Assembly: GCF_000316115.1 (NCBI RefSeq)
Contig: NZ_JH993797.1
Coordinates: 7,165,961 to 7,229,960 of the forward strand
Origin: Leptolyngbya sp. PCC 7375
GTDB taxonomy: Bacteria; Cyanobacteriota; Cyanobacteriia; Phormidesmidales; Phormidesmidaceae
DNA: 64,000 bases
Reading direction: 5' to 3'
In this document: in pieces, positions 6,962 to 28,684 of the stretch
How positions within the stretch are numbered: the first letter of the stretch is position 1
Layout of the letters: every line of letters begins with the position of its first letter
Program-made: the position numbers and the translations under genes
The notes under the pieces: generated by a model
Told to the model about the DNA's origin: nothing
The model's database searches: none
Seen by the model: only the letters and a program-made list of their open reading frames with translations

Positions 6962-7009
6962 AAGAAACTACCCATATCTAGAAAAGGAACAAGTCAAGTA
7001 AGCAATACG

Positions 7010-7942
7010 TTAGAACGCACCAAATCCAGTTACGACTTTAGGAACTGTCATTAACAACAGTTTTAAATCTTCCTGGAATGTCCACTGTCGAAGGTAATCC
7101 AAATCCATGCGGTTGACCGATGTCAGATCGCAGCCTTTAGAGCGGGTAGTGACCTGCCACATGCCGGTCATACCAGGTAACGCTCTCAATCGTCTCCGCA
7201 ATACTGGCTCAATCCGTACCGCATCATAGAGAGCCCAGGGTCTTGGTCCCACTAAGCTCATCTCACCGCGCAACACGTTAATCAGTTGGGGTAGCTCATC
7301 TAAGCTAAATTTTCGTAGCCAATGACCCACCCGTGTCACCCGTGGATCTTTTTCCAGTTTATGCAGGCCGGTCTGATTTCCCATGACCTTATGGTGCCGT
7401 GCCTCAGCATCTGTCTCCATACTGCGAAATTTGCAAATCTGAAACAGTCTTCCTTGATAGCCAACTCGCCACTGGCGAAATAAAATAGGCCCACGGGAAT
7501 CTAATCGAACCCATAACGCTAATAGTCCCATTAACGGACTGAGTAGAATACATAGGATAGATGCCACTAGCCAATCTGCCAGCCGTTTTACTCGCCAGAG
7601 TATGGGCTGTCGAGCCTGGGGTAAATCGGGAGCTAAAGGTACTCTCAAATAAACCTGCTTGTTAGTCGCACTACAGATATCTGCCCAGGCAGTAAACTTT
7701 GATGATTCTAATTGTGGGTCAAGGTATACTCGCTTGACAGGTGAGCGGCGCAGACAGTCTCGCAACCACACTTTATTGCTGAGAGCAGGAATCTCGGGTT
7801 CTAATTTAGATGAGCGAGGCTTTACGATTAATGCATCTTTTTCCCAAATCAATGTGCAGTTTTCAAATGCAGATGGTGTTCTCTGGGTAGGTGGCACTTG
7901 AAAAACAATGGGAGCCTTTAATAAAACTGTAGAGGTTGTCAT
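7010..7942 (-). CDS. Initiating sugar-phosphate transferase, WcaJ/PF02397 type (310 aa)
   Basis: This bacterial sugar transferase starts each repeat by moving a hexose-1-phosphate from a UDP-sugar to undecaprenyl phosphate. One hydrophobic segment follows KRLADWLVAS (about residues 127-155), then come the cytosolic catalytic motifs GPILFRQWRVG, CKFRSM, DPRVTRVG, RKFSLDELPQL and GEMSLVGPRP (the invariant RPxxxxE-type region reads RPWALYD here). It lacks the four extra N-terminal membrane helices of classical WbaP. Instead residues 1-125 form a soluble region with no domain I recognise, resembling heterocyst-polysaccharide HepC-like proteins of cyanobacteria. The C-terminal VTGFGAF is family-typical. 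Confidence 0.93.
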   Translation of the reverse strand: MTTSTVLLKAPIVFQVPPTQRTPSAFENCTLIWEKDALIVKPRSSKLEPEIPALSNKVWLRDCLRRSPVKRVYLDPQLESSKFTAWADICSATNKQVYLRVPLAPDLPQARQPILWRVKRLADWLVASILCILLSPLMGLLALWVRLDSRGPILFRQWRVGYQGRLFQICKFRSMETDAEARHHKVMGNQTGLHKLEKDPRVTRVGHWLRKFSLDELPQLINVLRGEMSLVGPRPWALYDAVRIEPVLRRRLRALPGMTGMWQVTTRSKGCDLTSVNRMDLDYLRQWTFQEDLKLLLMTVPKVVTGFGAF

Positions 7943-8097
7943 ACGTCTGAAGAGTCTCTTAATAGAAAGCCTGATTCAAGTTAAGCCTGTTGCCTAAAAA
8001 CTTGTCTTAGATAAACTTATAGCAAATAAATCTCCATTTGGGATGTCCGATTAACTACAATTGTGCCAATTCAGTGACTAAACTAGTGGAGTAAAGT

Positions 8098-10374
8098 CTA
8101 GCTGCGCCAGAGCATTACGGGCTCTTTGGAGAGTTTTGAAGAGCCATTGCGCTCATAAAGTTTCATAGGTCGCATACTCTCGCGGTGACCATTGGCGACA
8201 ATGCCAATGGTATTTACTTGATCCAGCATGGTCGTGGTATGGGTTAAATCAGCCTGAGTAATGCGATCTAGGCGGCTGACAATAATGGAGGCGTTACACA
8301 TGGATGCCAGCTGTAGTCCGTCAGCCAGGCCTGAAATAGCAGGGGCATCAACAATCACAAGATCATAATTTGCTTCAGCTTTTTCTAACACCTGTCGCAT
8401 TTGTTGTGAGCTTAGAAGCCTCATGGGGTCTTCAGGTACTGCCCCTGCCAGCAGAACATCAACACTGGTGCCGGAATGAGATAGAGAAACAGGAGAAATT
8501 TTTGTTTTATTCCACCGTGCTAAATTTGGATGCAACAGGGTTGATAAACCCTGAACATTTAATAGACCCAGATATTGATGCAACGATGGATTACGAAAAT
8601 TAGCATCAATCAATAACACCCGTTGGTGAGATCGGGCTGCACTAAGGGCTAAGCCGATGGATAATGTTGTTTTCCCTTCTCCCATTAGAGCCGATGTGAC
8701 GAGTAAAGAAGATAATGGTTGAGGATTGGTCAGCTGAATAGTCTTATAAATCAGATCGACAGCGTCTCGAAATGGCTGGCTTTGGCTGAGGGCAGCAGAA
8801 TCCGCAGGAGCCCGCTCAGCATCCAGAATAGTCAGCAAGGCATCGGCTTTTCGGGTGGGTATTTCAGGAATCACCCCTAAGAGCGGCAAAGCAGCTTGTT
8901 TTCTCAGCTCATCCGATGTACGTACTACCGTGTCTATCGCTTCTCGACCAAAGGCTAACCCACCCCCAATGAATATACCAGCCACTACACCCAACAGTAT
9001 GTTTTGCTTGGGTTGAGGTGAAATTTGTTCACCTAGCTGCGAAGGTTCAACAATATCCCAACTAAAACCACCCTGAGCTAATTCATTACTTAGCTCTTGG
9101 CGTAGTTGTAACAGTTGTTCCAACGATTGCTGCTGTATTTGGGCTTCGGGTTGAATGCGGTCGTATTCTGCAATTAGGCTAGGAAATTTAGAGAGTTCAG
9201 ATTTTAATTGTTGCGCAGCCTGTTCCAAACCATTTTTTCGCGCTTTAAAACGCTGTAAGCTAATCGTAGCCTGCACCAGCTCAGCGGCCAATCCCAGTTC
9301 AATTTCACCCAACTGCCCTTCGGTTAACAACGCCGTTTCATCTAGATTAATCTGTTGCGGGATGTCACCTAATACCCGTTCAACTTCTGATTGCAACAGA
9401 GAAATATTTCCCTCCCGTCGACTTACCAGATCCTGCACTCCTGGATCAGCTTCTGCATAAAGTGATCGCCGTTCCTCTAACTCTAGCTCTGTTGCCTGCA
9501 ATGCATTTAAAAGCTGCTGATAACGCGATGACTGACTTAAACGTGAAGCAATCATCGCCGATTGAGGATCGGCGGCCAGTTGATCTTGCAGAGAATTATA
9601 TTTAGCCTGAGCATCCAAAAATTCAGTTTCAACATCCACTTTCGACTGCTCAATCTGTCTGAGGGATTCAGCAACCGTCAGTGATTGCTGCTCTGGATCA
9701 ATCAGATTCTCTGATTCGCGAAACTCTTTTAAGGCCTGACGAGACACAGCAAGATTTTCTTGCACGCTTTCTATTTGCTGATTAACCAGGGCTAATCCTC
9801 GCTTAAGACGCTGCTCCTGCTGATCTTTGTTATAGCTTAAATAGACATCGCCTAATTTTTCTAAAAACCTTTGAACAACTTCTGGATCTTTACCGGTAAA
9901 GGTTGCTTTGAAAATACCAGTTTTGGCATCGCCTTCAGCCACCTGGGATAGGGTCAACGCATTTTGAAAACCATCAGCACATTCTGATGGTGGGGCTGAC
10001 GCATCACATAGCTCTGGATACTCAGACTGAAGCTGCTTAACCGTTTTTTCGACAAAGGACTTACTGCGCATCAGGTTGAGCTGAGTCGCATAGTCTGTTT
10101 GGGAAGAGGATGAACGTCGCCCTTGCTGTTGTCCGTTGGTGATATCAACCGTCTGGCGGTAGTTAGGCTCAACTAATAACTGCATTGAGCTTTGATAAAG
10201 AGGATCTTCTTTTAAAGTTAATGCGATCGCAATCCCCACCGTTCCTACAATGGCTCCGCCAAACCAGACAAAGCGTCTTAGCAGTATATTCAGAAGCTGA
10301 CCATAGCCAATCTCTGTTTTATCTGAGGAGGAGGAAAATTGTGATGTTCGCATATCTGTGTTGTTATTCGCCAT
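8098..10374 (-). CDS. Wzc-like polysaccharide co-polymerase / BY-kinase (758 aa)
   Basis: This is an inner-membrane protein controlling chain length and export. The N-terminal Wzz domain begins near residue 23 and has its first membrane span at about residues 35-52. A long periplasmic coiled-coil region covers residues ~150-440 (repeated QQIESVQ, LEQAAQQL and similar), and a second span lies near residue 465 (ILLGVVAGIFIGGG). The cytosolic CpsD/CapB-type kinase domain has Walker A GEGKTTLS (~563), Walker A' LLIDANFRNP (~590) and Walker B LVIVDAP (~671). The C-terminus has only one tyrosine (LYERNGSS) instead of the tyrosine cluster that canonical BY-kinases autophosphorylate. The next gene upstream ends 34 bp before it. 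It probably works with the export protein encoded at 11661-12818. Confidence 0.93.
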   Translation of the reverse strand: MANNNTDMRTSQFSSSSDKTEIGYGQLLNILLRRFVWFGGAIVGTVGIAIALTLKEDPLYQSSMQLLVEPNYRQTVDITNGQQQGRRSSSSQTDYATQLNLMRSKSFVEKTVKQLQSEYPELCDASAPPSECADGFQNALTLSQVAEGDAKTGIFKATFTGKDPEVVQRFLEKLGDVYLSYNKDQQEQRLKRGLALVNQQIESVQENLAVSRQALKEFRESENLIDPEQQSLTVAESLRQIEQSKVDVETEFLDAQAKYNSLQDQLAADPQSAMIASRLSQSSRYQQLLNALQATELELEERRSLYAEADPGVQDLVSRREGNISLLQSEVERVLGDIPQQINLDETALLTEGQLGEIELGLAAELVQATISLQRFKARKNGLEQAAQQLKSELSKFPSLIAEYDRIQPEAQIQQQSLEQLLQLRQELSNELAQGGFSWDIVEPSQLGEQISPQPKQNILLGVVAGIFIGGGLAFGREAIDTVVRTSDELRKQAALPLLGVIPEIPTRKADALLTILDAERAPADSAALSQSQPFRDAVDLIYKTIQLTNPQPLSSLLVTSALMGEGKTTLSIGLALSAARSHQRVLLIDANFRNPSLHQYLGLLNVQGLSTLLHPNLARWNKTKISPVSLSHSGTSVDVLLAGAVPEDPMRLLSSQQMRQVLEKAEANYDLVIVDAPAISGLADGLQLASMCNASIIVSRLDRITQADLTHTTTMLDQVNTIGIVANGHRESMRPMKLYERNGSSKLSKEPVMLWRS

Positions 10375-11660: not shown

Positions 11661-12818
11661 CTAAATGCCCAACAAACGCAAAACAAAGTTTAAAGGTGAT
11701 AAAACCGAGCTGAATGCATCGCCTACACTAGCAACTCCAGAACGTTGGACAATAACCGTGTCGTTTGGGCGTAAAGATGGGTTGGTTTCCTGATTAATCC
11801 CTTGAGCAAAATCAATGTCGATATCGCTCTGGGATACTGTACCGTTGAGATTTAGGCGGACAAGTCTTACGGTTCCTTTTCGAGCCCGATTATTAAACCC
11901 ACCTGCAGCTAAGATTGCTTGATTAAGCGGTGTATTGGGAGGGATCCGAATATTGCCAGGAGATTCTACTTCCCCAACAACATTTACGGAAATCTCATCA
12001 GGTGAAAAGCTAGCTGTGGCTAGTTCAGCCGCTTCATCTGAATTCAGATTTCTAGCCGTAGGAATGATAATGCGATCGCCATCTTGCAACTGCAAGTCTT
12101 CACTGAGATTACCTTCTTTTAGAAGATTCCACAAATTGACGGCAACTGTTTGGGATTTATTTTCCTTATGACGTTGATCAGCTAATAAAGTAGTACTCGA
12201 TACTAAGGCAGCTGATGAGCGCGGCAGCCGACGTTGCACTTCAATTTGGCGAATATCTGCTAACTGGGTGATCCCCCCAGCTAACTCAATTGCCTGGGTC
12301 AAGGTGGGAATATCTTCAGCTGCAACATTTGTACCGCTCTGCGCGGAGATTCGATAAGAGCCAGGTCGATGGACTTCACCAGCGATGGCAATCTGAATAG
12401 GACGCGTCTCAAGCACACTCAGGGTAACCACAGGACGCTGAACATAGGGTTCAAGAGTTTGTTCAATCTGAACTTTTGCTTGCTGGAGAGAAAGACCTTC
12501 AACATCAATAGCCCCGACGATGGGGATATTTAGATTGCCACTGGACAATACTCGAAATTCACCACTGTAGTCAGGGATGTTAAACACATCCACGCGTAAG
12601 TAATCACCAATACCCAGGATGTAGGATTCTCCTACTGTAGGATCAGGTGCCGCCAACTCTGATGAACTTGATGCTTCGACAGGCAAGGAGGGTAACGACG
12701 GTTCAGCTGGAGTCGTAGACTGAGCAACCGCATAGCGGCCTGCAGATTCTCCTAGAGCCAGGCAAATCAGAGTCAGCTTAATCAGAAATATTCCTCTAGT
12801 TGAAAAATGCTTTTTCAT
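11661..12818 (-). CDS. Wza-type polysaccharide export protein with SLBB domains (385 aa)
   Basis: This outer-membrane/periplasmic export protein would give the polymer a path out of the cell. After a signal peptide (MKKHFSTRGIF, then LIKLTLICLALG, with cleavage near AVAQS) it has the Poly_export domain beginning YILGIGDYLRVDVF. Two SLBB-type beta-grasp modules follow, at IQIAIAGEVHRPGSYRI and at SVNVVGEVESPGNIRIPP, and the end is hydrophobic (FVLRLLGI). The frame stays open up to 12875, but I chose the ATG at 12818 because it gives a normal signal peptide with two lysines. Neither site has a clear Shine-Dalgarno sequence, so the longer form (404 aa) is possible. It is the first gene of the leftward operon. 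Confidence 0.88.
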   Translation of the reverse strand: MKKHFSTRGIFLIKLTLICLALGESAGRYAVAQSTTPAEPSLPSLPVEASSSSELAAPDPTVGESYILGIGDYLRVDVFNIPDYSGEFRVLSSGNLNIPIVGAIDVEGLSLQQAKVQIEQTLEPYVQRPVVTLSVLETRPIQIAIAGEVHRPGSYRISAQSGTNVAAEDIPTLTQAIELAGGITQLADIRQIEVQRRLPRSSAALVSSTTLLADQRHKENKSQTVAVNLWNLLKEGNLSEDLQLQDGDRIIIPTARNLNSDEAAELATASFSPDEISVNVVGEVESPGNIRIPPNTPLNQAILAAGGFNNRARKGTVRLVRLNLNGTVSQSDIDIDFAQGINQETNPSLRPNDTVIVQRSGVASVGDAFSSVLSPLNFVLRLLGI

Positions 12819-12875
12819 GATTACTGCCAACAATAAATACAAACATCTAGATGACCAAAGCGATCGCATCATCAC

Positions 12876-14810
12876 TGATCACAGATGTAAACCACATGCA
12901 AGACTCTTCCCACCACAGGGCTAGAGAATTTAGGCAGTGATAACATTGAAACTTGAAAAACTCGTCAAGAATTGCACGCTAAGAATCAACAGAGCCGCAT
13001 ACCCATAGGTATCCTACAGATATCTAACTAAAACTCTGCCGTCTACTACAGTTCTTATTTTTTGGGATCACACACTATAGATGAAAAACCAGTCTTCGTA
13101 AGCTTACATACAGGGCAACAATAAGATCTAGCCTTAACTAACCATTCAGGAAACAGTGACTCGTGAACTACCGACACAATCTGCTTGTGCACTCACCCCA
13201 AGAAGGGGAATGGAGTCGATGTAAACATAGTACTTAAATGTCATCTAGTCAAAATTTTGCTTGCCATTCTGGCTTTTAGGCGTTCTCATATGGGGAAACC
13301 ACGCTTAAAACTTAAAAACCACGAGCATGAATGACGATTATCAGGTATCTAGCAAAAATAGAAGACTTTCAGATTCACATAGACATTGTTGACTGTATCT
13401 AACCATAGATGCGTACAAGAAAGATTTTCTTAGGGGCTTTCAGAAATGAAAACAGATAAACATTCTGAAGCACTAAGCGTTAGTAATTAAACTGCATATC
13501 TGGGTCTAACATAACCTAAATTTTAAAAATGAGCTACGTATCTTTATATTATTTGTGCGGGGTTTCTGTAAAGTCAGATTTTGCTAATGCTAATGCCCAA
13601 AAAGTTACCTGTTTAACATTTTTCGATATCATCAAAAAACAATAATTGCAATGATCTTGGTACATGTTTTCAGTGTTATTTAGGCAGCCATAGCTTCAAT
13701 CAGTATTGCCATGTTAGTTTTTTAGTGTCACAAGCTAAAGTCCTGATATCAGGGAGGTCTGGCCCCAATAATCAATCAGGTTTTGACCAGGAAAACTGGC
13801 AAGTTGACGGATCAACGGTCTATCAATTCGAAAAAATATTCAACTAGATTGAGTTTTTGCTGTTGCTGACTTAGGGGATAAACCGAGCAATCTATTAGGA
13901 TATCAATCTATAACTTGAAGGATGAAATTATGCCGAGGATCAGCGAAGCCAGTTTTTTTACTCTGTTATGACCGACATTATTAGTAGTAGGTCTTACGAA
14001 GTTTACGGCGGTTAGCATAACATTGAGTACGTTGCAATGATCACTGACATAGAACCATATGTTTTTGATTGTCTGTATAACTAGACAGCCGAGAAAACAT
14101 TTTTGCCAAAGAATATTTGAGGCCTTAGTTATTAGAGAACTTTGCAAGGGATGAAGACCTACCGCACCGTGAAAATAGCAATCACATTCTCTTTTGTGAG
14201 TTGATGTAAGCCCTAACGAAGTGACAAAAGGCACAACGTAAAATCGCTGACGAGAAACAATTATTTCATCTAATGCCCTACTGAATTTAAGAGGGTTATG
14301 AATAACTTCTTATTGTTGTGCAAGAGGATCTAGTGTTACTTAATTCTCCCATGCGTAGGAATGTTCCTATTTTTTTACTGGCCTCATCAATCAGCACGAT
14401 TATGGGTTTATTATGAGATGTTGTTACCGATCCGGCTTAATAGAATCATAGTTCGGAGCAGCAACATCTTAAATTATTAAGCTAATATTCCTTAAAGCAC
14501 CTGTGATACCTGTCAGATGCTGAATACAGTAATTTACCTATGTGAGATATACGAGTCTTTATTTCACTAGTAGAAGGAAATTTTATCAAAAAGATTTCAT
14601 TAAGAAGCTACTGGATTCATAAAGTTAGTAGGAATAATTCTATGGACAAACACTGCATAGGATTTTTTCTTACCCATGGATGATATATGGCTTGAGCAGC
14701 TGCATTATCAATAAATGCAATGGCTCAAGGATTGATTCTATGCCAAAGGTCTTTGGAGGCATCTAGGGGACTCATATTATTGCCGTTTCTTTAGTCCATA
14801 CGTCTTGACT
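12876..14810. other. Long intergenic region before the exopolysaccharide operon
   Basis: About 1.9 kb without a convincing gene. It is AT-rich with many stops in all frames. The longest frame (13908-14234, minus) has no recognisable motif. It must contain the promoter of the leftward export operon and that of the rightward 162-aa gene. A 24-base sequence at 14443-14466 recurs with one mismatch at 60729-60752. I could not pick out a credible -10/-35 pair. Confidence 0.5.
14443..14466. repeat. Dispersed 24-bp repeat, copy 1
   Basis: The sequence starting GAATCATAGTTCGGA and ending CAGCAACA matches 60729-60752 at 23 of 24 positions (G versus T at position 16). Both copies are intergenic and in the same orientation. 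At this copy TGTTG about 20 bases upstream can pair with CAACA, so a weak hairpin is possible. Confidence 0.6.
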
Positions 14811-15299
14811 ATGGTATTCGTTAGCACCAAACCCACCCTGCCACGCTGGCTCTGCGAAAATATTTTGTTAGGGAATCTACCTTGGCAACATGGCCTATGT
14901 CAGGCTTACAGTCATTTCAGCCAGGTTTACACATTGCACGATGCCTATTTGCTAGGAACGTATCAAAGTGCAGAAACCTATGGTGAGACTGTTCTTTGTT
15001 TACTATGGGATTCATTGTGGCTTCCCGAAGCCATCACCCGTCAGGCCAATCAGAACGAGCCGATTTTTTTACTGATTAAGGCCACTAAAACCCTGGGTAT
15101 CGCCCTGTCTGAAGGGACATTGCCTAAACCGGAGAAAAAGCCCCAGCGCATCCTTAAGGCAGAGCATGTTGAAGTAGACGATCAAACCGTTTTAGTCATT
15201 GACGATGTTCAGGGTAATACGCTGACGATTGTATTTGCCGGTCAGATGCATTTTCTAGCTGTCGATAACAAGCACCGCATCATTGATCTAGATATCTAG
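14811..15299 (+). CDS. Hypothetical protein (162 aa)
   Basis: I do not recognise a family. The ATG at 14811 is preferred to a TTG at 14805. The product has no signal peptide or membrane helix. It has a hydrophobic, aromatic N-terminal half (LPRWLCENILLGNLPWQHG) and a C-terminal beta-rich segment (VLVIDDVQGNTLTIVFAG, FLAVDNKHRIIDLDI) that could be a small barrel. A basic linker (KPEKKPQRILK) joins the two. It lies 47 bp upstream of crtD on the same strand, so the two may be co-transcribed, but no role in carotenoid synthesis follows from the sequence. Confidence 0.7.
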   Translation: MVFVSTKPTLPRWLCENILLGNLPWQHGLCQAYSHFSQVYTLHDAYLLGTYQSAETYGETVLCLLWDSLWLPEAITRQANQNEPIFLLIKATKTLGIALSEGTLPKPEKKPQRILKAEHVEVDDQTVLVIDDVQGNTLTIVFAGQMHFLAVDNKHRIIDLDI

Positions 15300-15346
15300 C
15301 GGTCAGCACAGACCGTTACACTAGGGTTAGGTAAATAAATGTAAAC

Positions 15347-16873
15347 ATGACCCCATTGGTAGAATCCCACACCCCCCATGGCCCATCCAAGGTGCTTGTC
15401 GTCGGGGCGGGTATTGGCGGGCTGACGGCTGCAGCTTTACTGGCTAAACGGGGTTACCAGGTTCGTGTTTTTGAACAAGCCATGGTGCCGGGGGGCTGTG
15501 CGTCTACCTTTCGACGACGGGGGTTTACCTTTGATGTCGGTGCGACCCAGGTTGCTGGCTTAGAACCAGGGGGAATTCACCATCAAATTTTTTCAGAATT
15601 AGGGATAGATCTACCGGCAGCTGAGCATTGCGATCCGGCTTGTGCAGTTTTCTTACCCGGAGAAACGACGCCGATCAATGTTTGGCGGGATCCGCAGCGG
15701 TGGAAAACCGAGCGTCAACAGCAGTTTCCAGGTAGTGAACCGTTTTGGCAAAAGCTGAGCGATCTATTTAGCTATAGCTGGCGATTTCAGGCCAGACAGC
15801 CGGTGTTGCCACCGCGCAATCTTTGGGATGCTTGGCAGTTGGGCAATTCACTGCGACCGGATACGCTGCTGACGGTGCCCTACACATTCTCAACCGTGGG
15901 CCAATTGCTTAAAGGCTATGGCCTCTATGAAAATCGTCGACTCAAAACATTTTTGGACCTACAGCTCAAGCTCTACTCCCAGGTAGGTGCAGATGAAACA
16001 GCTCTGTTATATGCGGCAACAGCATTGGGAGTATCCCAAGCGCCGCAGGGGTTATTTCATCTACAGGGCAGTATGCAGGGGTTGAGCACTGCATTGGTAA
16101 ACGCAATCAAACAGTTTGGCGGTCAGGTCTTTTTGGGACATGCCGTCGAGAAAATTCAGCTAGAGAACAATCGACCCCGGTTTGCCCAGGTCCGCCATCA
16201 GAAAACGGGTGACACCTGGTTAGAGTCTGCCGCTCATATCGTTGCTAATGTGACTGTGCAGAATTTAACCACATTGCTGGGTGAGCAAACGCCCCAAGGC
16301 TATCAGCGGCGGGTGGATAAGCTGATTCCGTCATCGGGAGCTTTTGTGGTTTACCTCGGTGTAGATCAGGCGACGATTCCTGAAGATTGCCCACCGCACC
16401 TACAGTTTCTCTATGACTATGACGGCCCAATTGGGGAGAATAACTCGCTGTTTGTGTCAGTTAGTCGACCAGGGGATGGTCGTGCACCTGAGGGCAAGGC
16501 AACGATTGTGGCGTCGTCATTTACAGATGTGCAGGCATGGCAAAAGTGTGATGACTATGGGGCGTTGAAGGCTGAGTATGAACGGGATGCGATCGCAAAA
16601 CTCAACCAATATTTCAACCTGGACCCACAGCACATTATCCACGCTGAATCGGGCACTCCCCGCACCTTTGAGCGCTACACAGCTCGACATCAGGGCATGG
16701 TAGGCGGCATCGGTCAGCGGTTATCTACCTTTGGTCCCTTTGGCTTTGCCACCCGGACGCCGATTCCTAAGCTATGGCTGGTAGGGGATTGTGTGCATCC
16801 AGGGGAAGGCACCGCTGGCGTCAGCTATGCAGCCTTGACCGCAGTTAGGCAGATTGATGCCATGGAGCGGTAG
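15347..16873 (+). CDS. crtD: C-3',4' carotenoid desaturase CrtD (508 aa)
   Basis: This FAD-dependent desaturase acts on the psi end group of monocyclic carotenoids during myxoxanthophyll (2'-hydroxy glycoside) synthesis in cyanobacteria. The N-terminal dinucleotide-binding motif is VLVVGAGIGGLTAA (residues ~17-30), followed by PGGCAS, FDVGATQVAGLEPGG and DPACAVFLPGETTP, which I recall as hallmarks of the cyanobacterial CrtD group. The C-terminal FAD-binding segment is LWLVGDCVHPGEGTAGVSYAAL. Length is normal for phytoene-desaturase-like enzymes. It should act at the thylakoid or cytoplasmic membrane with the crt pathway, whose other genes are not in this window. Confidence 0.93.
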   Translation: MTPLVESHTPHGPSKVLVVGAGIGGLTAAALLAKRGYQVRVFEQAMVPGGCASTFRRRGFTFDVGATQVAGLEPGGIHHQIFSELGIDLPAAEHCDPACAVFLPGETTPINVWRDPQRWKTERQQQFPGSEPFWQKLSDLFSYSWRFQARQPVLPPRNLWDAWQLGNSLRPDTLLTVPYTFSTVGQLLKGYGLYENRRLKTFLDLQLKLYSQVGADETALLYAATALGVSQAPQGLFHLQGSMQGLSTALVNAIKQFGGQVFLGHAVEKIQLENNRPRFAQVRHQKTGDTWLESAAHIVANVTVQNLTTLLGEQTPQGYQRRVDKLIPSSGAFVVYLGVDQATIPEDCPPHLQFLYDYDGPIGENNSLFVSVSRPGDGRAPEGKATIVASSFTDVQAWQKCDDYGALKAEYERDAIAKLNQYFNLDPQHIIHAESGTPRTFERYTARHQGMVGGIGQRLSTFGPFGFATRTPIPKLWLVGDCVHPGEGTAGVSYAALTAVRQIDAMER

Positions 16874-19709: not shown

Positions 19710-22172
19710 TTAACGACTAACACCCACCAACGCAGGCTGTTTCGCAGACCTAACTAAAACTCGAGCATCATCATCCAGATCAAAAACAGCCGTATCGCCA
19801 TCTGTGATCGTTCCTGCCAGCAGGGCTTCAGCCAGGTAATCTTCTACCAGACGAGAGATGGCTCGACGCATGGGACGAGCACCGTAGGTTTGGTCATAGC
19901 CTTCATTCACCAGGTGCTCCCTAAAGGCATCGGTGAGTTCAAAGGTAATGTTGCGTTCAGCCAGGCGTCCAGTTACCTGAGCAAGCAGGATATCGGCAAT
20001 CTGAGCAACTTCCTGCTTGATCAGCTGACGGAAGACGATAATCTCGTCAATACGGTTCAACAACTCAGGGCGGAAGAACTGCTTCATTTCTTCGTTAACC
20101 AAGTTACGAATGTTGTTATAGCGAGACGTCATCTCATCATCGGTACTGAGCTCAAAGCCCAAACCACCGCCACCTTTCTCAATCACCTTGGAACCAATGT
20201 TCGAAGTCATGATGATCAAGGTGTTCTTGAAGCTAACTTTGCGGCCCTTCGCATCATTTAGGTGACCGTCATCCAAAAGCTGTAGCAAAATGTTAAAGAC
20301 ATCGGGATGGGCCTTTTCAATTTCATCCAGCAAAATGACAGTGTAAGGCTTGCGGCGTACGGCCTCGGTTAGCTGTCCGCCTTCGTCATAGCCCACATAT
20401 CCCGGAGGAGAGCCAATCAGCTTAGACACTGATTGAGGTTCCATAAATTCCGACATATCGACGCGAATCATGGCGTCTTCTGCACCAAAGACAGAGGCTG
20501 CCAACGCTTTAGCCAACTCAGTTTTACCGACACCCGTGGGACCTGAGAAAATCAGGCTAGCAATGGGGCGATTGGGGTTACGCATGCCCACACGAGAACG
20601 TCGCACCGCCTTGGCAACCGCTTCAACCGCTTCGTTCTGGCCTATTACACGTTCATGCAGCGTATCTTCCAGATGCAGAATCATGGCAGATTCTGACTCA
20701 GATAAGCGGTTAACGGGTACGCCAGTCCAGGCGGACACAATGTCGGCAATGTCTTCATTCGTTACCTCAGGATGGGGAGTGCCATTGGGCACTAACTCTG
20801 CCAATAGACCTTGCTCCTTAGCCCTTAAAGCAGCCACATCATTGAAAGCCTGACTTTCCAAAAGCTCCATAATTTTGCCCTGCACCTGACGCAGCTCCGT
20901 GCGCTTCTCCCCAGCCGGAATTTTCTGTGAGTATCGCAAACGCACCCGGGAGCCGGCTTCATCAATCAGGTCGATAGCTTTATCAGGCAAGTAACGATCG
21001 TTGATGTAGCGATCTGCCAGCGTCGCTGCGGCCTCAAGGGCTTCATCTGTGATGGTCAGCCGGTGGAACTGTTCGTAACGCCCCCGGATACCGCCCAAAA
21101 TTTCTAACGTATCTTCGACGGAAGGCGGTGCCACCGTCACTCGCTGAAAACGACGCTCCAGAGCTGCATCCTTCTCGATGTACTTGCGGTATTCTTCCAG
21201 GGTCGTCGCTCCAATGCACTGAAGTTCACCGCGAGCCAGGGCGGGCTTCAGCAGGTTAGCCGCATCCATGCTGCCTTCTAAAGAACCAGCACCGACCAGG
21301 GTATGAATTTCATCAATCACTAGAATGATGTTCTGAGCTTCCCGTACTTCAGACATTACCTGGTTGAGACGCTCTTCAAAGTCACCCCGGAAGCGGGTAC
21401 CCGAAACCAGCATTGCCAGGTCAAGACTGATAACGCGACGGTCAAATAACGCCTCAGGCACATCTTGGTTGACGATGCGCTGGGCTAAGCCTTCTGCGAT
21501 CGCAGTTTTACCTACACCCGGTTCACCTACTAACACGGGGTTATTCTTAGTGCGCCGACCCAGAATTTGCACCACCCGCTCAATTTCTTCAAAGCGACCG
21601 ATGACTGGATCCAGCTTTCCATTGGCGGCTAGCTCCGTTAAGTCAGTACTAAACTCAGCCAGGACACCGCTGTTGCGCTTAGAGGCCTGTTCCGGTCGCT
21701 CACCATCACGAGAACGACCACCAGCCGTCACAGCCGACACCTCGCCAATGGTGCGAATCAACTGTGTACGGACCTGAGTAGGATCTACACCTAAATTAGT
21801 CAGGACTCGATAAGCAACGCTTTCTAGGTTTTGAGTCAGACTCAGCAGTAAATGCTCTGGTTCGATGTAGGGATGATCCAGCTTGCGTGCCTCTTGGAAA
21901 GCCTGCTCAAAAACTTGCTTAACCTTAGGCGTAAAAGGAATTTCAGTAGGCCCGTTACCAGATCCACGACCAATAATAGACTCCACTTCAGCACGAGAGT
22001 TGGCCAGGTTGACTCCAAAATCACTGAGTACTCGAGCGGCAATGCTAGAGCCTTCCTTCACAATCCCGAGTAGTAACTGCTCGCTACCAACGAAATTGTG
22101 ACCCAGGCGTCTTGCTTCTTCCTGAGCTTGCATGATCACCGCAATTGCCGCATTGGTGAAATGTTCAAACAT
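19710..22172 (-). CDS. clpC: ClpC-type AAA+ unfoldase, divergent paralogue (820 aa)
   Basis: This hexameric Clp/Hsp100 ATPase unfolds proteins for ClpP. It has two N-terminal Clp_N repeats (residues 1-145), a first AAA module with Walker [10 protein letters not shown] (~216-224) and Walker B VIDEIHTL, and a UVR-like middle segment (~415-470). A second AAA module has [15 protein letters not shown] and [17 protein letters not shown] loop fits the LGF-type ClpP-docking tripeptide. The N-domain differs from the usual cyanobacterial ClpC: it starts [14 protein letters not shown] rather than MFERFTEKAIKVIM, and [16 protein letters not shown] replaces the usual GFVAVEIPFTPR. I infer a second ClpC specialised in substrates or adaptors. 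It is monocistronic, with about 660 bp of leader region. Confidence 0.95.
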
Positions 22173-22832
22173 ATTTTGTGGACCTCTGCCAGGATATGGA
22201 GTCGAAACCTATAAAAGAAACTAAGTAATTGGTGTTAACCAAGATTACTCCAGACATTAAGTTTTTTAACTATGTAATAAAAATATACCCATCTTCGTTG
22301 CATCTCGACAGCCTGGAGAGCCGAAGTTGAGTAAGTGGGGTAATCCGTATAGCCCTGTAGACAACAGATATGGTTTCAGTTTGCCCGAAGGATAAAGGAA
22401 TTTATAGGTCTATGAATCAACGAAGACCGAATCTCCATATCTATGCAGGGTGGATAAAAAATTGATAAAGAAATCGCCCCCTCACTGATGTTTGCTCGTG
22501 GTCAGCAGGGGGGCATCCGGACGGGATCTATTTAAATTGATTATTTTCTTTCAGCTTAAAAGAAGAATTCTAGAAAGAATTTATCAAGAGGGCGAGTGGT
22601 ACGATGCGATATTCTATCAGCCGTAAAAAATAACCTAAAAAATTCAATCAAGAAGAAAAACTATCAGACCTAGCAATAAAAACTCAGGGCAAAACCACCC
22701 AGATATACATCAATTACACGTACACAAATTTCTACGGTCTGTTCATGGCAAATGTTTTAACAGAGTTTTAGCTTAGAAACTCAATCATGAACCGTCTTTG
22801 TGTGGCAGTCTCTCAGCTACTTTGGAGACACC
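22173..22832. other. Intergenic region upstream of clpC, with GC-rich hairpin
   Basis: 660 bp without a credible frame. It must hold the clpC promoter and leader and the end of the 158-aa gene. The only marked structure is the hairpin at 22477-22512, set in AT-rich DNA. No transcription signals could be assigned with confidence. Confidence 0.5.
22477..22512. other. GC-rich hairpin in the clpC leader region
   Basis: CCCCCT (22477-22482) pairs with AGGGGG (22507-22512), and inside it CTGA (22485-22488) pairs with TCAG (22502-22505). It stands out in AT-rich DNA. It could terminate transcription of the upstream 158-aa gene (AT-rich tract to its left on the minus strand) or be a leader element of clpC. 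Function not shown. Confidence 0.4.
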
Positions 22833-23309
22833 TTAGATAACGCCAGCTTGATCGGCATGACAAGTTTCTAAAATTCTTTCATCTAGCTCAGATAGGGTAT
22901 TGATACGAGTAAATCCATCAATACCAAATTCAGGAGCGGCACCACCAGCAGCTAGCATCGGCTGAGTCTCAACTGCAAGAGAGTAGGGATGGCTTGTCTG
23001 CTCATAACTGTCCACAACCATTAAGTCCAAACGGGTCGCAGAAATATCACCATGGAAACAATCGAATGAAGAGCTAGGCATGTAAAAAGCACCAACCGTG
23101 CGATCGCCAGTTACTTCAAACACCATATAAACTGACCCAGGTTGAGCCGCTGCGGGTTGTTGACCATATAGATAAACACCGTCTACAAGGGGTGCATTAG
23201 ATAAAGGATTGGCTAGAGCGCTAGCTGAGCTGAGCAATGTAGCACCGAGGAAAACGAGCGCAGACTTGACGAATTTCGGGCAACGGGGGTGAACTGACAA
23301 ATAAGCCAT
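22833..23309 (-). CDS. Conserved exported hypothetical protein (158 aa)
   Basis: The N-terminus has a signal peptide (basic residues, then FVKSALVFLGATLLSSASALA), so the product is probably periplasmic. The mature part begins DGVYLYGQQP and has YMVFEV, GAFYMPSSSFDCFHG, LDLMVVDSYE and a C-terminal ISELDERILETC-like stretch (LSELDERILETC). I recall this arrangement as a conserved cyanobacterial family without a known role. Two cysteines in the mature part (FDCFHG and ETCHAD) could form a disulfide. It stands alone, divergent from the ABC-class ATPase gene. Confidence 0.8.
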   Translation of the reverse strand: MAYLSVHPRCPKFVKSALVFLGATLLSSASALANPLSNAPLVDGVYLYGQQPAAAQPGSVYMVFEVTGDRTVGAFYMPSSSFDCFHGDISATRLDLMVVDSYEQTSHPYSLAVETQPMLAAGGAAPEFGIDGFTRINTLSELDERILETCHADQAGVI

Positions 23310-23539
23310 GGGATACGTGATTACACCTCTTATGTAACTAGTATTGATGAATTTTTGGGTTAGCTAAGTGATACCTCTAGACATGGCTGATGACGTTTAA
23401 CACTGGGTCATGTGATTGACGTCACAATGAACTGTATTGCTTGTATTGCAAGACTTATACAGATCTAACGCAGTGAAAATGATCAGCTTTAACCGTAAAA
23501 TCATGATTGCTTGACGCAAATGCCGTTCACATCCCACCC

Positions 23540-25237
23540 ATGACGTCACACAATGCCCTTCGGCAACAGCTAGAGCAGCTTGATGGACGCAGCTACTCTG
23601 CTTACAAACGCCTCAAGGGCAGCTATGACTTCCCTGGGTTTAAGCTCATCCTGGCCCATATTCAGGGAGATCCCTTTGCTGCCCCCAGTCGGGTCAGCCT
23701 CTGGACCAGTCACCAACACAGTCAATGGCCACAGAACTACTGGCATGACCAAACGCGACGCATCGTGCTAGCCGATTTTCTGCATCGGCAAATTCATCAG
23801 GCCATCCCCAAAATTCAGCAACGGCGGGGGTCCGGCAAAAGCGGTCGACTGATCATTGCAGATACTAGTCAGGCTGTTTTGGCACGCACAGCTGTACAGG
23901 TCACTGCCGAGGGGATAGAGCTGCGCCTGGGGGTGGGCTTACCTGCCTTTGGCCGCAGAATCGCAGGTCACGCTGCCAGGGATTTGCTAATTCAAGATTT
24001 ACCGCATCTGGTGGCTACGGCTCTACACTATCAGCCCCAATGGTGCCAGGCTATGGAGCAGCATATTGCGACCGTCGAAGATGCCAATGCCCTCAGACAG
24101 CAGTTGTCGGCTCAAAACCTCGTAGCCTTTATTGCCAATGGCTCAATTTTACCCAGACGTAGCGGTGTCGATTCTCGACCTCTAGCAACAGCTATACCGT
24201 TTAAATCGCCAGGTTCTTTAGAGACTACCCTACCAACACCCCATGGTGGACCCGTCACAGGTCTGGGTCTTCCCCAGGGGGTAACGTTAATAGTCGGTGG
24301 CGGCTACCATGGCAAATCGACGGTACTCAAAGCCATTGCCCAGGGGGCCTATAATCATATCCCCGGTGACGGTCGTGAACAGGTGGTAGCCAATACGGCC
24401 ACGGTCAAGATTCGAGCAGAGGATGGTCGCAGTGTGACCGGTGTGGATATTTCGCCGTTTATTGATCGGCTGCCCCAGGGAATATCCACCAGGTCTTTTA
24501 GTACCACTAACGCTAGCGGCAGTACATCCCAAGCCGCCAATATTTTAGAGGCGATTGAAGCTGGGGTGCAGGTATTGTTGATTGATGAGGATACGGCGGC
24601 GACGAATTTGATGATTCGAGATCGCAACATGCAAACGCTCATCGCCAAGGACAAAGAACCCATCACCCCATTTATTGATAAGGTCCGACAGCTTTACACC
24701 GATCACGGTATTTCTACGGTTTTGGTCATGGGCGGCAGCGGTGACTATTTTGAAGTGGCTGACCATGTGATTGCCCTGGATAACTATGGGGCTAAGGATG
24801 TCACTGCTGAGGCTAAGGCAATTGCGGCTGAGTATCCTAGCGATCGCAAAATAGAAGGCGGTCAGAACTTTGGCACCATCACCCAACGATACATTCAGCT
24901 ACCTAAATTTGACACCGATCGCAAACCCGCTAAAGTCAAAACCCAAAGTCTCACCACCCTAACCATCGGCCAAGAAGATATCGACCTACGCGGTATTGAA
25001 CAACTCATAGAGCCCAATCAAACCAGAGCCATCGCCCACGCTATTCTCACCTGGCAACAACAAAATCGTTCCCACTCATTAAAAAGTCTCTTAGACGACA
25101 TCATGGACTGGGTAAATCGAGGAGACTTTGACTCACTCACTCCTTATCCCATGGCCGACCTCAGTGAATTTCGTCGCTATGAACTCGCCGCTGTCATTAA
25201 TCGACTGAGAAGTCTCAGGATAATTGCGGATAGATAG
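23540..25237 (+). CDS. ABC-class ATPase, PF09818-like (565 aa)
   Basis: This is a predicted soluble ATPase of the 'ABC class' (DUF2791/ABC_ATPase). The N-terminal domain contains LRQQLEQLDGRSYSAYKRLKG and YDFPGFKLILAHIQGDPFA. The nucleotide-binding core has a Walker A-like loop VGGGYHGKST (near residue 258), a signature-like STTNASGSTSQAANILEAIE and Walker B VLLIDEDTAATN. A conserved VMGGSGDYFEVADHVI (His switch region) follows. I start it at ATG 23540; the frame is open from a TTG at 23507. It has no membrane segments or transporter partner, and its function in the cell is unknown for the family. A small downstream frame and a hairpin follow. Confidence 0.88.
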   Translation: MTSHNALRQQLEQLDGRSYSAYKRLKGSYDFPGFKLILAHIQGDPFAAPSRVSLWTSHQHSQWPQNYWHDQTRRIVLADFLHRQIHQAIPKIQQRRGSGKSGRLIIADTSQAVLARTAVQVTAEGIELRLGVGLPAFGRRIAGHAARDLLIQDLPHLVATALHYQPQWCQAMEQHIATVEDANALRQQLSAQNLVAFIANGSILPRRSGVDSRPLATAIPFKSPGSLETTLPTPHGGPVTGLGLPQGVTLIVGGGYHGKSTVLKAIAQGAYNHIPGDGREQVVANTATVKIRAEDGRSVTGVDISPFIDRLPQGISTRSFSTTNASGSTSQAANILEAIEAGVQVLLIDEDTAATNLMIRDRNMQTLIAKDKEPITPFIDKVRQLYTDHGISTVLVMGGSGDYFEVADHVIALDNYGAKDVTAEAKAIAAEYPSDRKIEGGQNFGTITQRYIQLPKFDTDRKPAKVKTQSLTTLTIGQEDIDLRGIEQLIEPNQTRAIAHAILTWQQQNRSHSLKSLLDDIMDWVNRGDFDSLTPYPMADLSEFRRYELAAVINRLRSLRIIADR

Positions 25238-25395
25238 ATTTTACTAACTTAGTAGAAACACCCATAAACTCTCCTAAAAATGAAATAATTGAAACTTTAG
25301 TGAATCGATATTGTTATCGATAGTCAGTGAAGCCAGGTGGGCACGTTTAGCTTGAGATAGATGTGTCTTTTTATACCCCTGCCCATACTGGTCAT

Positions 25396-25557
25396 ATGCA
25401 ACACCCTCAAGAACCTCATCTGGAACGGCCGCGCATTCGATGGTCCTGGTTTACCCTCAGCTGTATTTGCCTATTCTCTGGCTTTTTATATCTGGCCGTT
25501 GTGGATATTACAGACCCAGTACAGCTCACACAAAACCCAACAGAGCAACAACCATAG
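25396..25557 (+). CDS. Possible small single-span membrane protein (53 aa)
   Basis: A short frame beginning at ATG 25396 encodes an N-terminal polar stretch (MQHPQEPHLERPRIRW), one hydrophobic helix (FTLSCICLFSGFLYLAVV) and a polar tail. The charge pattern fits a single-span membrane protein with the N-terminus inside. An upstream GTG at 25363 would add 11 residues. It lies about 160 bp after the ATPase gene and 27 bp before a perfect hairpin, which supports expression. No family recognised. Confidence 0.45.
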   Translation: MQHPQEPHLERPRIRWSWFTLSCICLFSGFLYLAVVDITDPVQLTQNPTEQQP

Positions 25558-25584
25558 AGTCTCAATCCATATTCTTCTTATTGC

Positions 25585-25618
25585 AAGGGTTCACCATCAC
25601 TGGCATGGTGAACCCTTT
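25585..25618 (+). terminator. Perfect 13-bp hairpin, probable terminator
   Basis: AAGGGTTCACCAT (25585-25597), a 7-nt loop and ATGGTGAACCCTT (25605-25617) form a perfect stem followed by a short T tract. It lies after the possible 53-aa gene on the plus strand. Confidence 0.65.
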
Positions 25619-25844
25619 AGGAAAGCTCTAATTTCTGCTGATTTTTTAGCTGCTCGATAAAAGCCGCATGCTCAGCAGTTGCTAATCCCTTCTGAAACTT
25701 CTGCTAAACCAGTATTTTCAAGTTTAGGAAGATTCAGGACCAATTGATCAGCTATTGTGACGTACTGGAGTTAGGCTTAAACCAGAGGCATCTACAGGAT
25801 TTTATTCAATTCCATACCAGCCTTCAAACAAACAGGAAATTCCT

Positions 25845-28370
25845 TTAGATTGGACAGTTTTTTTGAGGAATCTCTGAATCATCCGAATGAATTGGTACAA
25901 AGTCAAAATCTACATTAGCTCCAGATGTTGAAGCTCTATCTGGATTGAGAGAAGTATCCTGAACCTTCACAAGTTGCAGTTCTAAGTTAGAGACGCCATT
26001 TTGCTCAAATCTCAGAGCTTTTGAGTCGCTATAATCTACTTCAATACCCGATTTAAGAGCCATATAAATAGAAGAACGACTAGGAGAGTTAAAGAATGGA
26101 AGAGAAGAATTAGTTTCCTTAATGGCTTTAGCAACAGCTATCAATCCAAAGTAAGACATTGCAGTAGCATGATTCACTATTTTTTTATTCCAAAAATTGT
26201 ATGCTTCACAAGCAAAACCCGAAGGATCGCTATCAAAGTGCCAAGGAATAGCAAGAACCATATCTAAAGCTGCTTTTTGTTTTAGGGCATCTGGAGTGTA
26301 AAGGTTTGCCATATCTCCAATTACCGAAATATTACCTGATAAATCCTTATCATCTATATATTCAAGTAGCTTAATTGCTTTACTGGTGGCCCTGATTGAT
26401 GGAAATAAAACTAGAGCTTTAGCTGCTCCATTAACATCTTGCAAAAAAGGGTCCGTGACATTACTTTGAACGGAATTATCATCTTTTACTAGAGAGTCGA
26501 AAGATATCTCCTGTATAACCTCTCCATGCTTCTCAAACTCATTTCTGAAATTGATGGTCAGTTCATTGGCGTAGTCATTCTCTGACGCATAAACAACTGA
26601 AGTTTTGGTATAGCCATTATCTGAAAGATATTGGGATAATTTTTCTGCACCTCTCTTGCTGGCAGGATTCATACGAAAGACGTAGTTATAGTCTTCTAAA
26701 TCATCTAATATACTAATCGGCGTAATGAGTACGAGTTCGTCCTTGTAGACTTTTGCTGCTTCTAGGCTAACGTTGCTTGTCCAGTGCCCCACCACAGCTA
26801 AGATATTGTTGAGTTTAAGAATTTCCTCACTGATCCTTCTTCCAACTTCAGGATCGTCAGCATCATCAACAATTAACAATCTTAAACCTCCACCTCTAAT
26901 TGCACATTCTTCATTTATCTTATTTTGAGCTTGTGCAAACCCACGAAGCATTTCTGCGGCCTTGCCAGGCTCCTCTCCACTAGTAGGTACTGGAACAGCT
27001 ACGGTGTAGCTTTTGCCGTTACATATTTCTCTATTAGCAAGTTTCTTATTTTGCGTGTAGATTTTCTCTTCAGGATTAACATCGAGAGGCCCGTCAAAGT
27101 CTTTGAGAAGACGATTTCCATCTAAACTTAGCCTATCTAGTAATTCCGATGAAAACTTTTGCTTGATTTCCTTATCAAGGCTTACATCTCTTAAGAAGAC
27201 TGCCAAGACACCATAGATGCCCAATAACACTCCGCCAAAAATAAGCACAGTTAATTGCTTTGGATTAGAAAAGAATTTCAATCCAAAGTTATTGATTCTT
27301 TTATCTGCTGAAGAAGAATCATTTACCGTAACTTCCTTGTCCTTCTCACCCACCAGTTCAGCTCTAACAGATGATATCTCGCCAGCAATTTTAGTCTCAG
27401 TAGCTGTAGGTTCAACAGGAATGCCAGTTTCATCTATTTTGGTTCCTGATCCATCTACATTGTCTATTTTTATCTCCGTAGATACATCTGCAGCTACTTT
27501 ACTCTTAACCAGTTCAAATTCAGTAGACTGATCTTGAATAGGTTCAATATTAAACTCTTCAAGTACCTTAACCTTTGCTCTTTCTGCATCTACAGGCATA
27601 ATCCCTTTATCCTGTTGTCGCCCTTCTAAGCTTTTTCTGATTTTTTCGCTGAAAGGATAATTTTCTCCATTCTCAAGTAGATCGCGTAAGGTATCTTCAT
27701 AAAGGAGAATATTCTTTCGATATTCCTCTATAGGTAAAAAAGCCTCGCTCTCAATCTTTAGAGCCTCTTGAAGGGTTAATTTAAGTTCTTCTCGAAGCTC
27801 GTCTAAAGTGCGTCTTTCAACAATTCCTATTTCTCCTCCTGTTCGCAACAAGAGTTCCTCGACTTTTTGCTTATACCGTGATTTACTAGCCTCTTTCTGT
27901 TCAGCTAGCTCTTGACGTTTCTTATGTAGCTCCTTCACAACTTTTCTAATACCCGCAGCTATGTTCGTAAATGCCGCATCTCTGTTAGGCCATGTAGTTA
28001 CAGGTTTTGCATCCTTTGGAAAAGCTTGAAGCATACCAAAAGACATATCAGTCCACTCCGCTGGCCTTACGATGATTGGGATAACTATTGCTTCTCCTTT
28101 TTCATGCCTATTCATTGCCTCTTGAAGTTCTATCTCGTAACAATATTTCGAGGCTATAAAATCGGGACTAATCAAAAGCAAGATAATATCTGCTTTTTTC
28201 AGATTTTTATCTATATCGCCACTCCATTCGCTACCTGCTGGTATCTGACGATCATGCCAAGTACTTATAATGCCTTTCCATTTCAGAGAAGCAAGGCTAG
28301 TATCCAGCTGATCACGAAGCTCTTCATCTTTATGTGAATAAGAAATAAACAACTCAATCTTATCGTTCAT
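25845..28370 (-). CDS. Transmembrane TIR-domain protein with extracytoplasmic receptor-type ligand-binding domain (841 aa)
   Basis: Residues 1-145 are a TIR domain of the bacterial TIR_2 type. It has LFISYSHKDE, the loop WHDRQIPAGSEW, LLLISPDFIASKYCYEIEL with Glu81 at the usual NADase glutamate position, IPIIVRP and KPVTTWPNRDAAF. A charged helical region (about 142-235, rich in Glu, Lys and Arg) looks coiled-coil. A Thr/Glu-rich linker leads to one membrane span (residues ~372-393, TVLIFGGVLLGIYGVLAVFL). Residues ~454-820 are a Peripla_BP_6-like fold of branched-chain amino-acid receptors (YTVAVPVPTSGEEPGKAAEMLRG is split across its first strand and helix; then LLIVDDADDPEVG, AVVGHWTSN, LITPIS, VYASENDYA, VIGDMANLY). 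By charge the TIR side is cytoplasmic. I infer a sensor that couples an external ligand to NAD-type signalling or cleavage. It is monocistronic and looks AT-rich compared with its neighbours. Confidence 0.88.
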   Translation of the reverse strand: MNDKIELFISYSHKDEELRDQLDTSLASLKWKGIISTWHDRQIPAGSEWSGDIDKNLKKADIILLLISPDFIASKYCYEIELQEAMNRHEKGEAIVIPIIVRPAEWTDMSFGMLQAFPKDAKPVTTWPNRDAAFTNIAAGIRKVVKELHKKRQELAEQKEASKSRYKQKVEELLLRTGGEIGIVERRTLDELREELKLTLQEALKIESEAFLPIEEYRKNILLYEDTLRDLLENGENYPFSEKIRKSLEGRQQDKGIMPVDAERAKVKVLEEFNIEPIQDQSTEFELVKSKVAADVSTEIKIDNVDGSGTKIDETGIPVEPTATETKIAGEISSVRAELVGEKDKEVTVNDSSSADKRINNFGLKFFSNPKQLTVLIFGGVLLGIYGVLAVFLRDVSLDKEIKQKFSSELLDRLSLDGNRLLKDFDGPLDVNPEEKIYTQNKKLANREICNGKSYTVAVPVPTSGEEPGKAAEMLRGFAQAQNKINEECAIRGGGLRLLIVDDADDPEVGRRISEEILKLNNILAVVGHWTSNVSLEAAKVYKDELVLITPISILDDLEDYNYVFRMNPASKRGAEKLSQYLSDNGYTKTSVVYASENDYANELTINFRNEFEKHGEVIQEISFDSLVKDDNSVQSNVTDPFLQDVNGAAKALVLFPSIRATSKAIKLLEYIDDKDLSGNISVIGDMANLYTPDALKQKAALDMVLAIPWHFDSDPSGFACEAYNFWNKKIVNHATAMSYFGLIAVAKAIKETNSSLPFFNSPSRSSIYMALKSGIEVDYSDSKALRFEQNGVSNLELQLVKVQDTSLNPDRASTSGANVDFDFVPIHSDDSEIPQKNCPI

Positions 28371-28684
28371 GGCAGATGGACTAATGGCTACAGAGAGTTA
28401 GATAGCTACGGATTAGGGCTCAGGATTTGTACTTAAACACCCTGAATTTATGACTACATACTACTATGTATGGTTCTACTGACTTTAATATGCGTTAATC
28501 TTGTATGACTTAATTGACTTGAGGTGCATCCGAGCCTTTGAGGATGAATGCTTTTCTCAGATCGAGTTCTGTATTAAATGATTCAGTCTCTTTTCACATA
28601 AGAGAACAAAAGGGACTCACTGCCAAAACCAATGAGTCCCTTTATCTAACTAGATTGTTCGACTATTACCTGAACTATGGAGCT
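28371..28684. other. Intergenic region between gnd and the TIR-receptor gene
   Basis: 314 bp holding the TIR gene's promoter region and the gnd terminator hairpin at 28608-28643. A short CATAC/GTATG inverted repeat lies near 28450-28470. Nothing else is supported. Confidence 0.5.
28608..28643 (-). terminator. Rho-independent terminator of gnd
   Basis: AAAGGGACTCA (28609-28619) and TGAGTCCCTTT (28633-28643) form an 11-bp perfect stem with a 13-nt loop. Read on the minus strand it ends in TTTT, 42 bp after the gnd stop codon. Confidence 0.75.

Follow-up and report, generated by a model that had tools for sequence, protein, structure and literature searches.

Peripla_BP_6 domains have been reported in 8 of 473 orthocaspases (PMC8283722), a Ser/Thr kinase with an ANF-receptor-like domain is known from Nostoc sp. 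7120 (gi 17227840; PMC1262709), and caspase proteins with a transmembrane segment and an extracellular periplasmic binding protein (PBP) domain belong to the EACC1 two-gene conflict system (PMC7159879). Among TIR proteins, that of the Thoeris system responds to intracellular phage components (PMC12578639), and the NADase activity of AbTir is blocked by mutation of any of Ser140, Asp167, Glu208, and Arg215, each of which is needed (PMC11374754). Kinase-PBP and orthocaspase-PBP proteins are already present in published tables; for their TIR version, no paper on a TIR-PBP protein or on a transmembrane bacterial TIR receptor was found in the open-access literature.

The gene described here lies in the marine cyanobacterium Leptolyngbya sp. 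PCC 7375, within a window (the whole stretch of DNA analysed) of 64,000 nucleotides. It occupies positions 25845-28370 on the minus strand, starts with ATG, and encodes 841 amino acids plus stop, uninterrupted by stops. A chance open reading frame was rejected for this interval. Against the homologue of Adonisia turfae CCMR0081 (G004; 773 amino acids, 45-50% identity over its length), the coding sequence is constrained (dN ~0.29-0.41; dS > 1.4, saturated). As the original prediction had proposed, one chain combines a TIR domain, a membrane span, and a binding domain, and this receptor architecture (TIR, linker, single span, type-1 periplasmic binding domain) is solid, since sequence profiles, hydropathy, AlphaFold models, and Foldseek agree. 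Pfam matches, all above curated cut-offs, were TIR_2 at residues 8-106 (E 1.3e-16), Peripla_BP_6 at 455-804 (1.5e-13), and ANF_receptor (4.2e-10), and the closest PDB sequence relatives were the Leu-binding protein 4mlc/4q6b (1.6e-14) and the Cat1 TIR (2.9e-6).

From the N-terminus, with all parts on the minus strand, the protein comprises the TIR domain (residues 1-145; 27936-28370), a helical linker (146-287; 27510-27935), a low-complexity linker (288-368; 27267-27509) with 9% identity to the homologue, a membrane span (375-393; 27192-27248), and a predicted extracytoplasmic binding domain of the Peripla_BP_6/LIVBP type (433-841; 25848-27074). The span, expected earlier near residues 372-393, has a mean hydropathy of 2.59 and is the only one in the protein. 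The full-length AlphaFold model, run with an alignment of relatives, had a pLDDT of 81.1, with the TIR domain, linker, and outer lobes mostly at 85-96 and residues 293-393 low. The region formerly taken for a coiled coil proved to be the folded helical linker, a module found between caspase, kinase, or TIR domains and WD40, GUN4, FGE, or PBP domains in 65 of 386 genomes of the phylum. In other loci, TIR proteins were fused to FGE-sulfatase/C-lectin, GUN4 (a tetrapyrrole-binding family), or AAA_35 domains (L060 1252-3324; L061 1190-2497; L062 1407-2765; L040 58-2232; L031 1492-3054), with a linker like that of the receptor in all except L031.

A TIR fold for residues 1-145 was borne out by Pfam and by the isolated AlphaFold model (pLDDT 92.5, pTM 0.88), for which the closest Foldseek match by TM-score was AbTir with bound 3AD (7uxu; 0.73/0.82), with plant, SARM1, and TLR TIRs also among the matches. 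Glu81 (codon 28128-28130, minus strand), previously placed at the usual NADase position, aligns in PDB alignments with the corresponding Glu in Cat1 and in the AbTir-like bacterial TIR; its counterpart is Glu in 11/11 close TIRs and in 39 of the 45 fetched TIRs, and that of Ser10 is kept in 41/45. By sequence alignment rather than structure superposition, S10, D40, E81, and R88 correspond to AbTir S140, D167, E208, and R215, the four essential residues, and are conserved in most of the 45 TIRs; the counterpart of AbTir R151 is not kept in the receptor. The TIR domain shares fold and catalytic set with AbTir, Cat1, and other bacterial TIR NADases and keeps an intact candidate NAD-cleaving site. 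It differs from them in that the matched chains have no span or outer domain, and in carrying C77-x-x-x-E81 where AbTir has W204-x-x-x-E208; in TcpC, a change of the matching WxxxE Trp was without effect (PMC11374754). The genome of the strain holds 30 TIR_2 matches. Among its ORFs, some of ~1090-1514 amino acids each carry three to five TIR_2 domains in one frame (C5:1948124-1951051; C5:1939373-1941043; C1:457618-459276; C5:872651-874315; C5:4837585-4839240).

The outer domain, as had been anticipated, adopts the two-lobe fold of amino-acid receptors, with confident AlphaFold lobes and Foldseek matches to 4q6b (E 3.5e-19, TMt 0.82), LivJ/LivK, and mGluR ligand domains. Like LivJ/LivK-type binding proteins, it retains the GHxxS ligand motif (S532); unlike them, it is covalently tied to a span and a TIR domain, and Ile554 stands at the position of LivJ Thr102, a ligand-contacting residue of LivJ-type proteins. 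Since this Thr, present in 46/79 relatives, is replaced, a plain amino acid is less likely than the original prediction implied, and the ligand may be something else. An ABC-transporter substrate-binding protein was considered and rejected, given the fusion to TIR and span and a neighbourhood in which no membrane permease was found.

NAD+ access requires a cytosolic TIR domain. The side of the membrane had previously been assigned by charge, for which the flanks of the span in this protein, with two K/R on the TIR side and four on the outer side, give no support; the relatives do, since among 56 fused relatives the N side has a K/R excess in 39 and a deficit in 9. In addition, the four Cys residues of the outer part (450, 489, 721, and 839) are all kept in the homologue. 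From the charge bias of the family and the conserved outer Cys, we infer that the TIR domain is likely cytosolic.

In cyanobacteria, the same outer domain and single span are joined to Ser/Thr kinase, CHAT protease, caspase, AAA_35, STAND NTPase, or TIR modules. Like these proteins, the receptor has a homologous C-terminal outer domain and one span between output and outer domain. N-terminal modules, counted among the matches listed at loci chosen for long ORFs and thus not to be read as frequencies, were Ser/Thr kinase (~24), CHAT (~13), AAA_35 (8, two weak), caspase (6), and TIR (4), the last being the rarest of the six inner modules among these matches; nSTAND/AAA_16 with TPR was a further form among the typed loci. 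The order of domains was sought in other cyanobacteria and is present in Adonisia turfae and in two more TIR-span-PBP proteins (G010, G022) from other genera of the same family, so that four of the outer-domain matches in 65 genomes of the cyanobacterial family carry TIR. In a 292-genome sample of the phylum, ~60 large fused ORFs were typed among the matches listed and, the window gene excepted, none carried TIR. TIR_2 and Peripla_BP_6 scans of the strain's own genome revealed no second TIR-PBP protein. A contig search gave no match with the full receptor protein and Adonisia turfae only with the outer-domain pair, while a plasmid search returned no full-length match, its best hits being TIRs on their own and outer domains that were either solo or fused to caspases.

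On the outer-domain tree (79 rows), the TIR label needs three changes, forced by the starred branches, and a single clade of the four TIR rows is rejected (p-AU 0.002). Because two of these rows have long branches, recruitment of TIR to the outer domain at least twice is the safe reading of the tree, and three times a likely one. The TIR domain of G022 is of a visibly different subtype (DWVRIE).

The kinase and caspase relatives share with the receptor the N-terminal output, one span, and C-terminal Peripla_BP_6 domain, and the caspase forms also the helical linker; compared with these kinase- and orthocaspase-PBP proteins, the output of the receptor is TIR and the outer pocket is altered (I554). 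EACC1 resembles it in joining a cytosolic conflict effector through a transmembrane segment to an outer PBP domain, but is a two-gene, mainly actinobacterial system, and the receptor neighbours searched match no such partner. With metazoan Toll-like/IL-1 receptors the protein shares a single pass, a probably cytosolic TIR, and an outer ligand domain, and differs from them in its reversed order (TIR N-terminal), a PBP instead of LRR/Ig domains, and an NADase residue set. Membership among Toll-like receptors was rejected on the Peripla_BP_6 outer domain and the reversed order, and the resemblance is an analogy of architecture for which no common descent is claimed.

The gene occupies a variable slot (25558-28680, no strand assigned) that holds other cargo in genus-mates and whose neighbours, gnd and the gene of a P-loop protein of the ABC_ATPase class (PF09818), include no membrane permease. 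Adonisia turfae matches the window at 97% identity on both sides of the slot (20156-25557, and 28681 onward), and in that species the slot holds an unrelated 1146-amino-acid pentapeptide-repeat membrane protein; in another genus-mate it holds a rubrerythrin-like ORF. The receptor gene has a GC of 0.383 and a GC3 of 0.297, against a GC3 of 0.41-0.52 in eight other window genes, in agreement with the AT-richness noted earlier. The transfer that this had hinted at holds, since cargo differs between 97%-identical flanks and GC3 is low, and the receptor gene is a recent, lineage-specific arrival. The homologue in Adonisia turfae lies 3.3 Mb from the slot which, together with the differing cargo, indicates that these genes move. 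Direct repeats or att-like sequences were sought at the slot ends, where only chance matches of 7-11 bases occurred. The slot itself appears as a cargo-swap site with no visible mobility genes (window 25558-28680, TIR receptor; L180 5403-9366, pentapeptide-repeat protein; L181 4765-6150, rubrerythrin-like ORF).

In the window scan, whose matches to ClpC and a desaturase were generic, the receptor had no partner effector beside it, as first proposed, nor any known defence gene; its neighbours are housekeeping genes. Clustering of relatives with defence genes was observed in Adonisia turfae, whose homologue lies directly upstream of Lamassu LmuA, LmuC, and LmuB and an MTase gene, near a XerD-like recombinase, and not for G010 and G022, which adjoin ordinary genes. 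The Lamassu-adjacent homologue is the sole direct hint of defence, a single case and not a statistic. At the Adonisia locus (L057), the Lamassu operon spans 12628-16282 and the recombinase gene 6736-7737, and an uncharacterised 472-amino-acid ORF is found at 8069-9487. Regarding Thoeris, the TIR domain is of the class matched by PADLOC ThsB models, whereas the receptor is membrane-bound and has no adjacent ThsA. Searches of the own genome for the Thoeris partner families PF18185 and PF20016 gave no match, the control genomes being likewise silent. Despite the ThsB-model match, membership in Thoeris was rejected, with no ThsA among the scanned neighbours.

Taken together, the protein may be an outside-in receptor. 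The two-lobed outer domain would bind a small molecule in the periplasm, and binding would alter how the dimer or cluster is arranged, a change passed on through the one span and the helical linker; the TIR domains, presumably cytosolic, would then gather into the head-to-tail assembly that activates TIR NADases and cleave NAD+ to ADP-ribose products, leading either to NAD+ depletion, by which the cell or filament would be arrested or die, or to a second messenger. That ligand binding activates the TIR domain, so that NADase activity or an ADPR-type signal arrests or kills the cell, is, in our judgement, an evenly balanced proposition. It is supported by the folds and domain order, the kept catalytic set, a TIR model closest to the AbTir ligand-bound filament, the topology of relatives, the modular fusions, the repeated recruitment of TIR, the coding constraint, and the Lamassu-side homologue. 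It is weakened by the position of the window gene alone among housekeeping genes, by a charge rule that is ambiguous for its own span, by the 81-residue low-complexity linker and the barely conserved juxtamembrane stretch, odd for a rigid signal path, and by a Lamassu link seen in one case, with the G010 and G022 homologues beside ordinary genes.

Because the protein is one of several receptors that are interchangeable in their outputs, its possible functions are wider than phage defence. With the same topology, the output could be ordinary nutrient, stress, or cell-cell signalling, through an ADPR-type messenger or partner recruitment and without defence or suicide, a reading that we regard as unlikely though a serious competitor: the commonest sister form among the matches listed carries a Ser/Thr kinase, usually regulatory, the outer domain is of an amino-acid-binding class, and the window is free of defence neighbours; however, caspase, CHAT, STAND, and TIR are classes of conflict and death systems (PMC7159879, PMC8195603), the gene came as lone foreign cargo, and a homologue lies beside Lamassu. 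Conversely, a sensor dedicated to phages, which would give early warning by detecting extracellular molecules that come from phages or are set free by lysis and would trigger abortive infection, appears very improbable. The Lamassu operon, MTase gene, and recombinase near the Adonisia homologue would suit it, but form one case only; the PADLOC ThsB model, 319 positions long, matches the TIR domain with an E of 3.6e-60, but only with its TIR half; and ThsA gave no match, although control genomes gave none either.

The TIR domain might also be a non-catalytic assembly module that scaffolds the other TIR proteins of the genome at the membrane. A TIR-rich genome offers possible partners, and C77 replaces the WxxxE Trp; nevertheless, the conservation of E81 and S10 across the fetched TIRs and the tolerance of Trp loss by TcpC (PMC11374754) make this rather improbable.

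Returning to the outside-in receptor, if confirmed, it would represent a bacterial TIR that answers an extracellular signal, unlike that of Thoeris with its intracellular phage components (PMC12578639). More broadly, cyanobacterial receptors of this family may read an external small molecule and convert it into arrest or death via interchangeable kinase, CHAT, caspase, STAND, or TIR modules, the TIR members being TLR-like with a directly enzymatic, NAD-consuming output, assembled at least twice and probably three times; we advance this generalization tentatively, at somewhat less than even confidence. An effector-swapping family allows a direct test of the idea that, in multicellular bacteria, common external cues feed into more than one death or immunity enzyme, and supplies chimera-ready parts, with one outer domain and six natural outputs. 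Within the wider family, STAND/AAA-type PBP receptor genes are adjacent in several genomes (L115, L117, L120, L121, L119, L122; G154, G203, G199), which suggests local duplication. Moreover, a plasmid of a Nostoc lichen symbiont (NZ_CP026693.1; L153 1108-10281) carries a 3057-amino-acid ORF in which a C-terminal Peripla_BP_6 domain is combined with two caspase-like domains.
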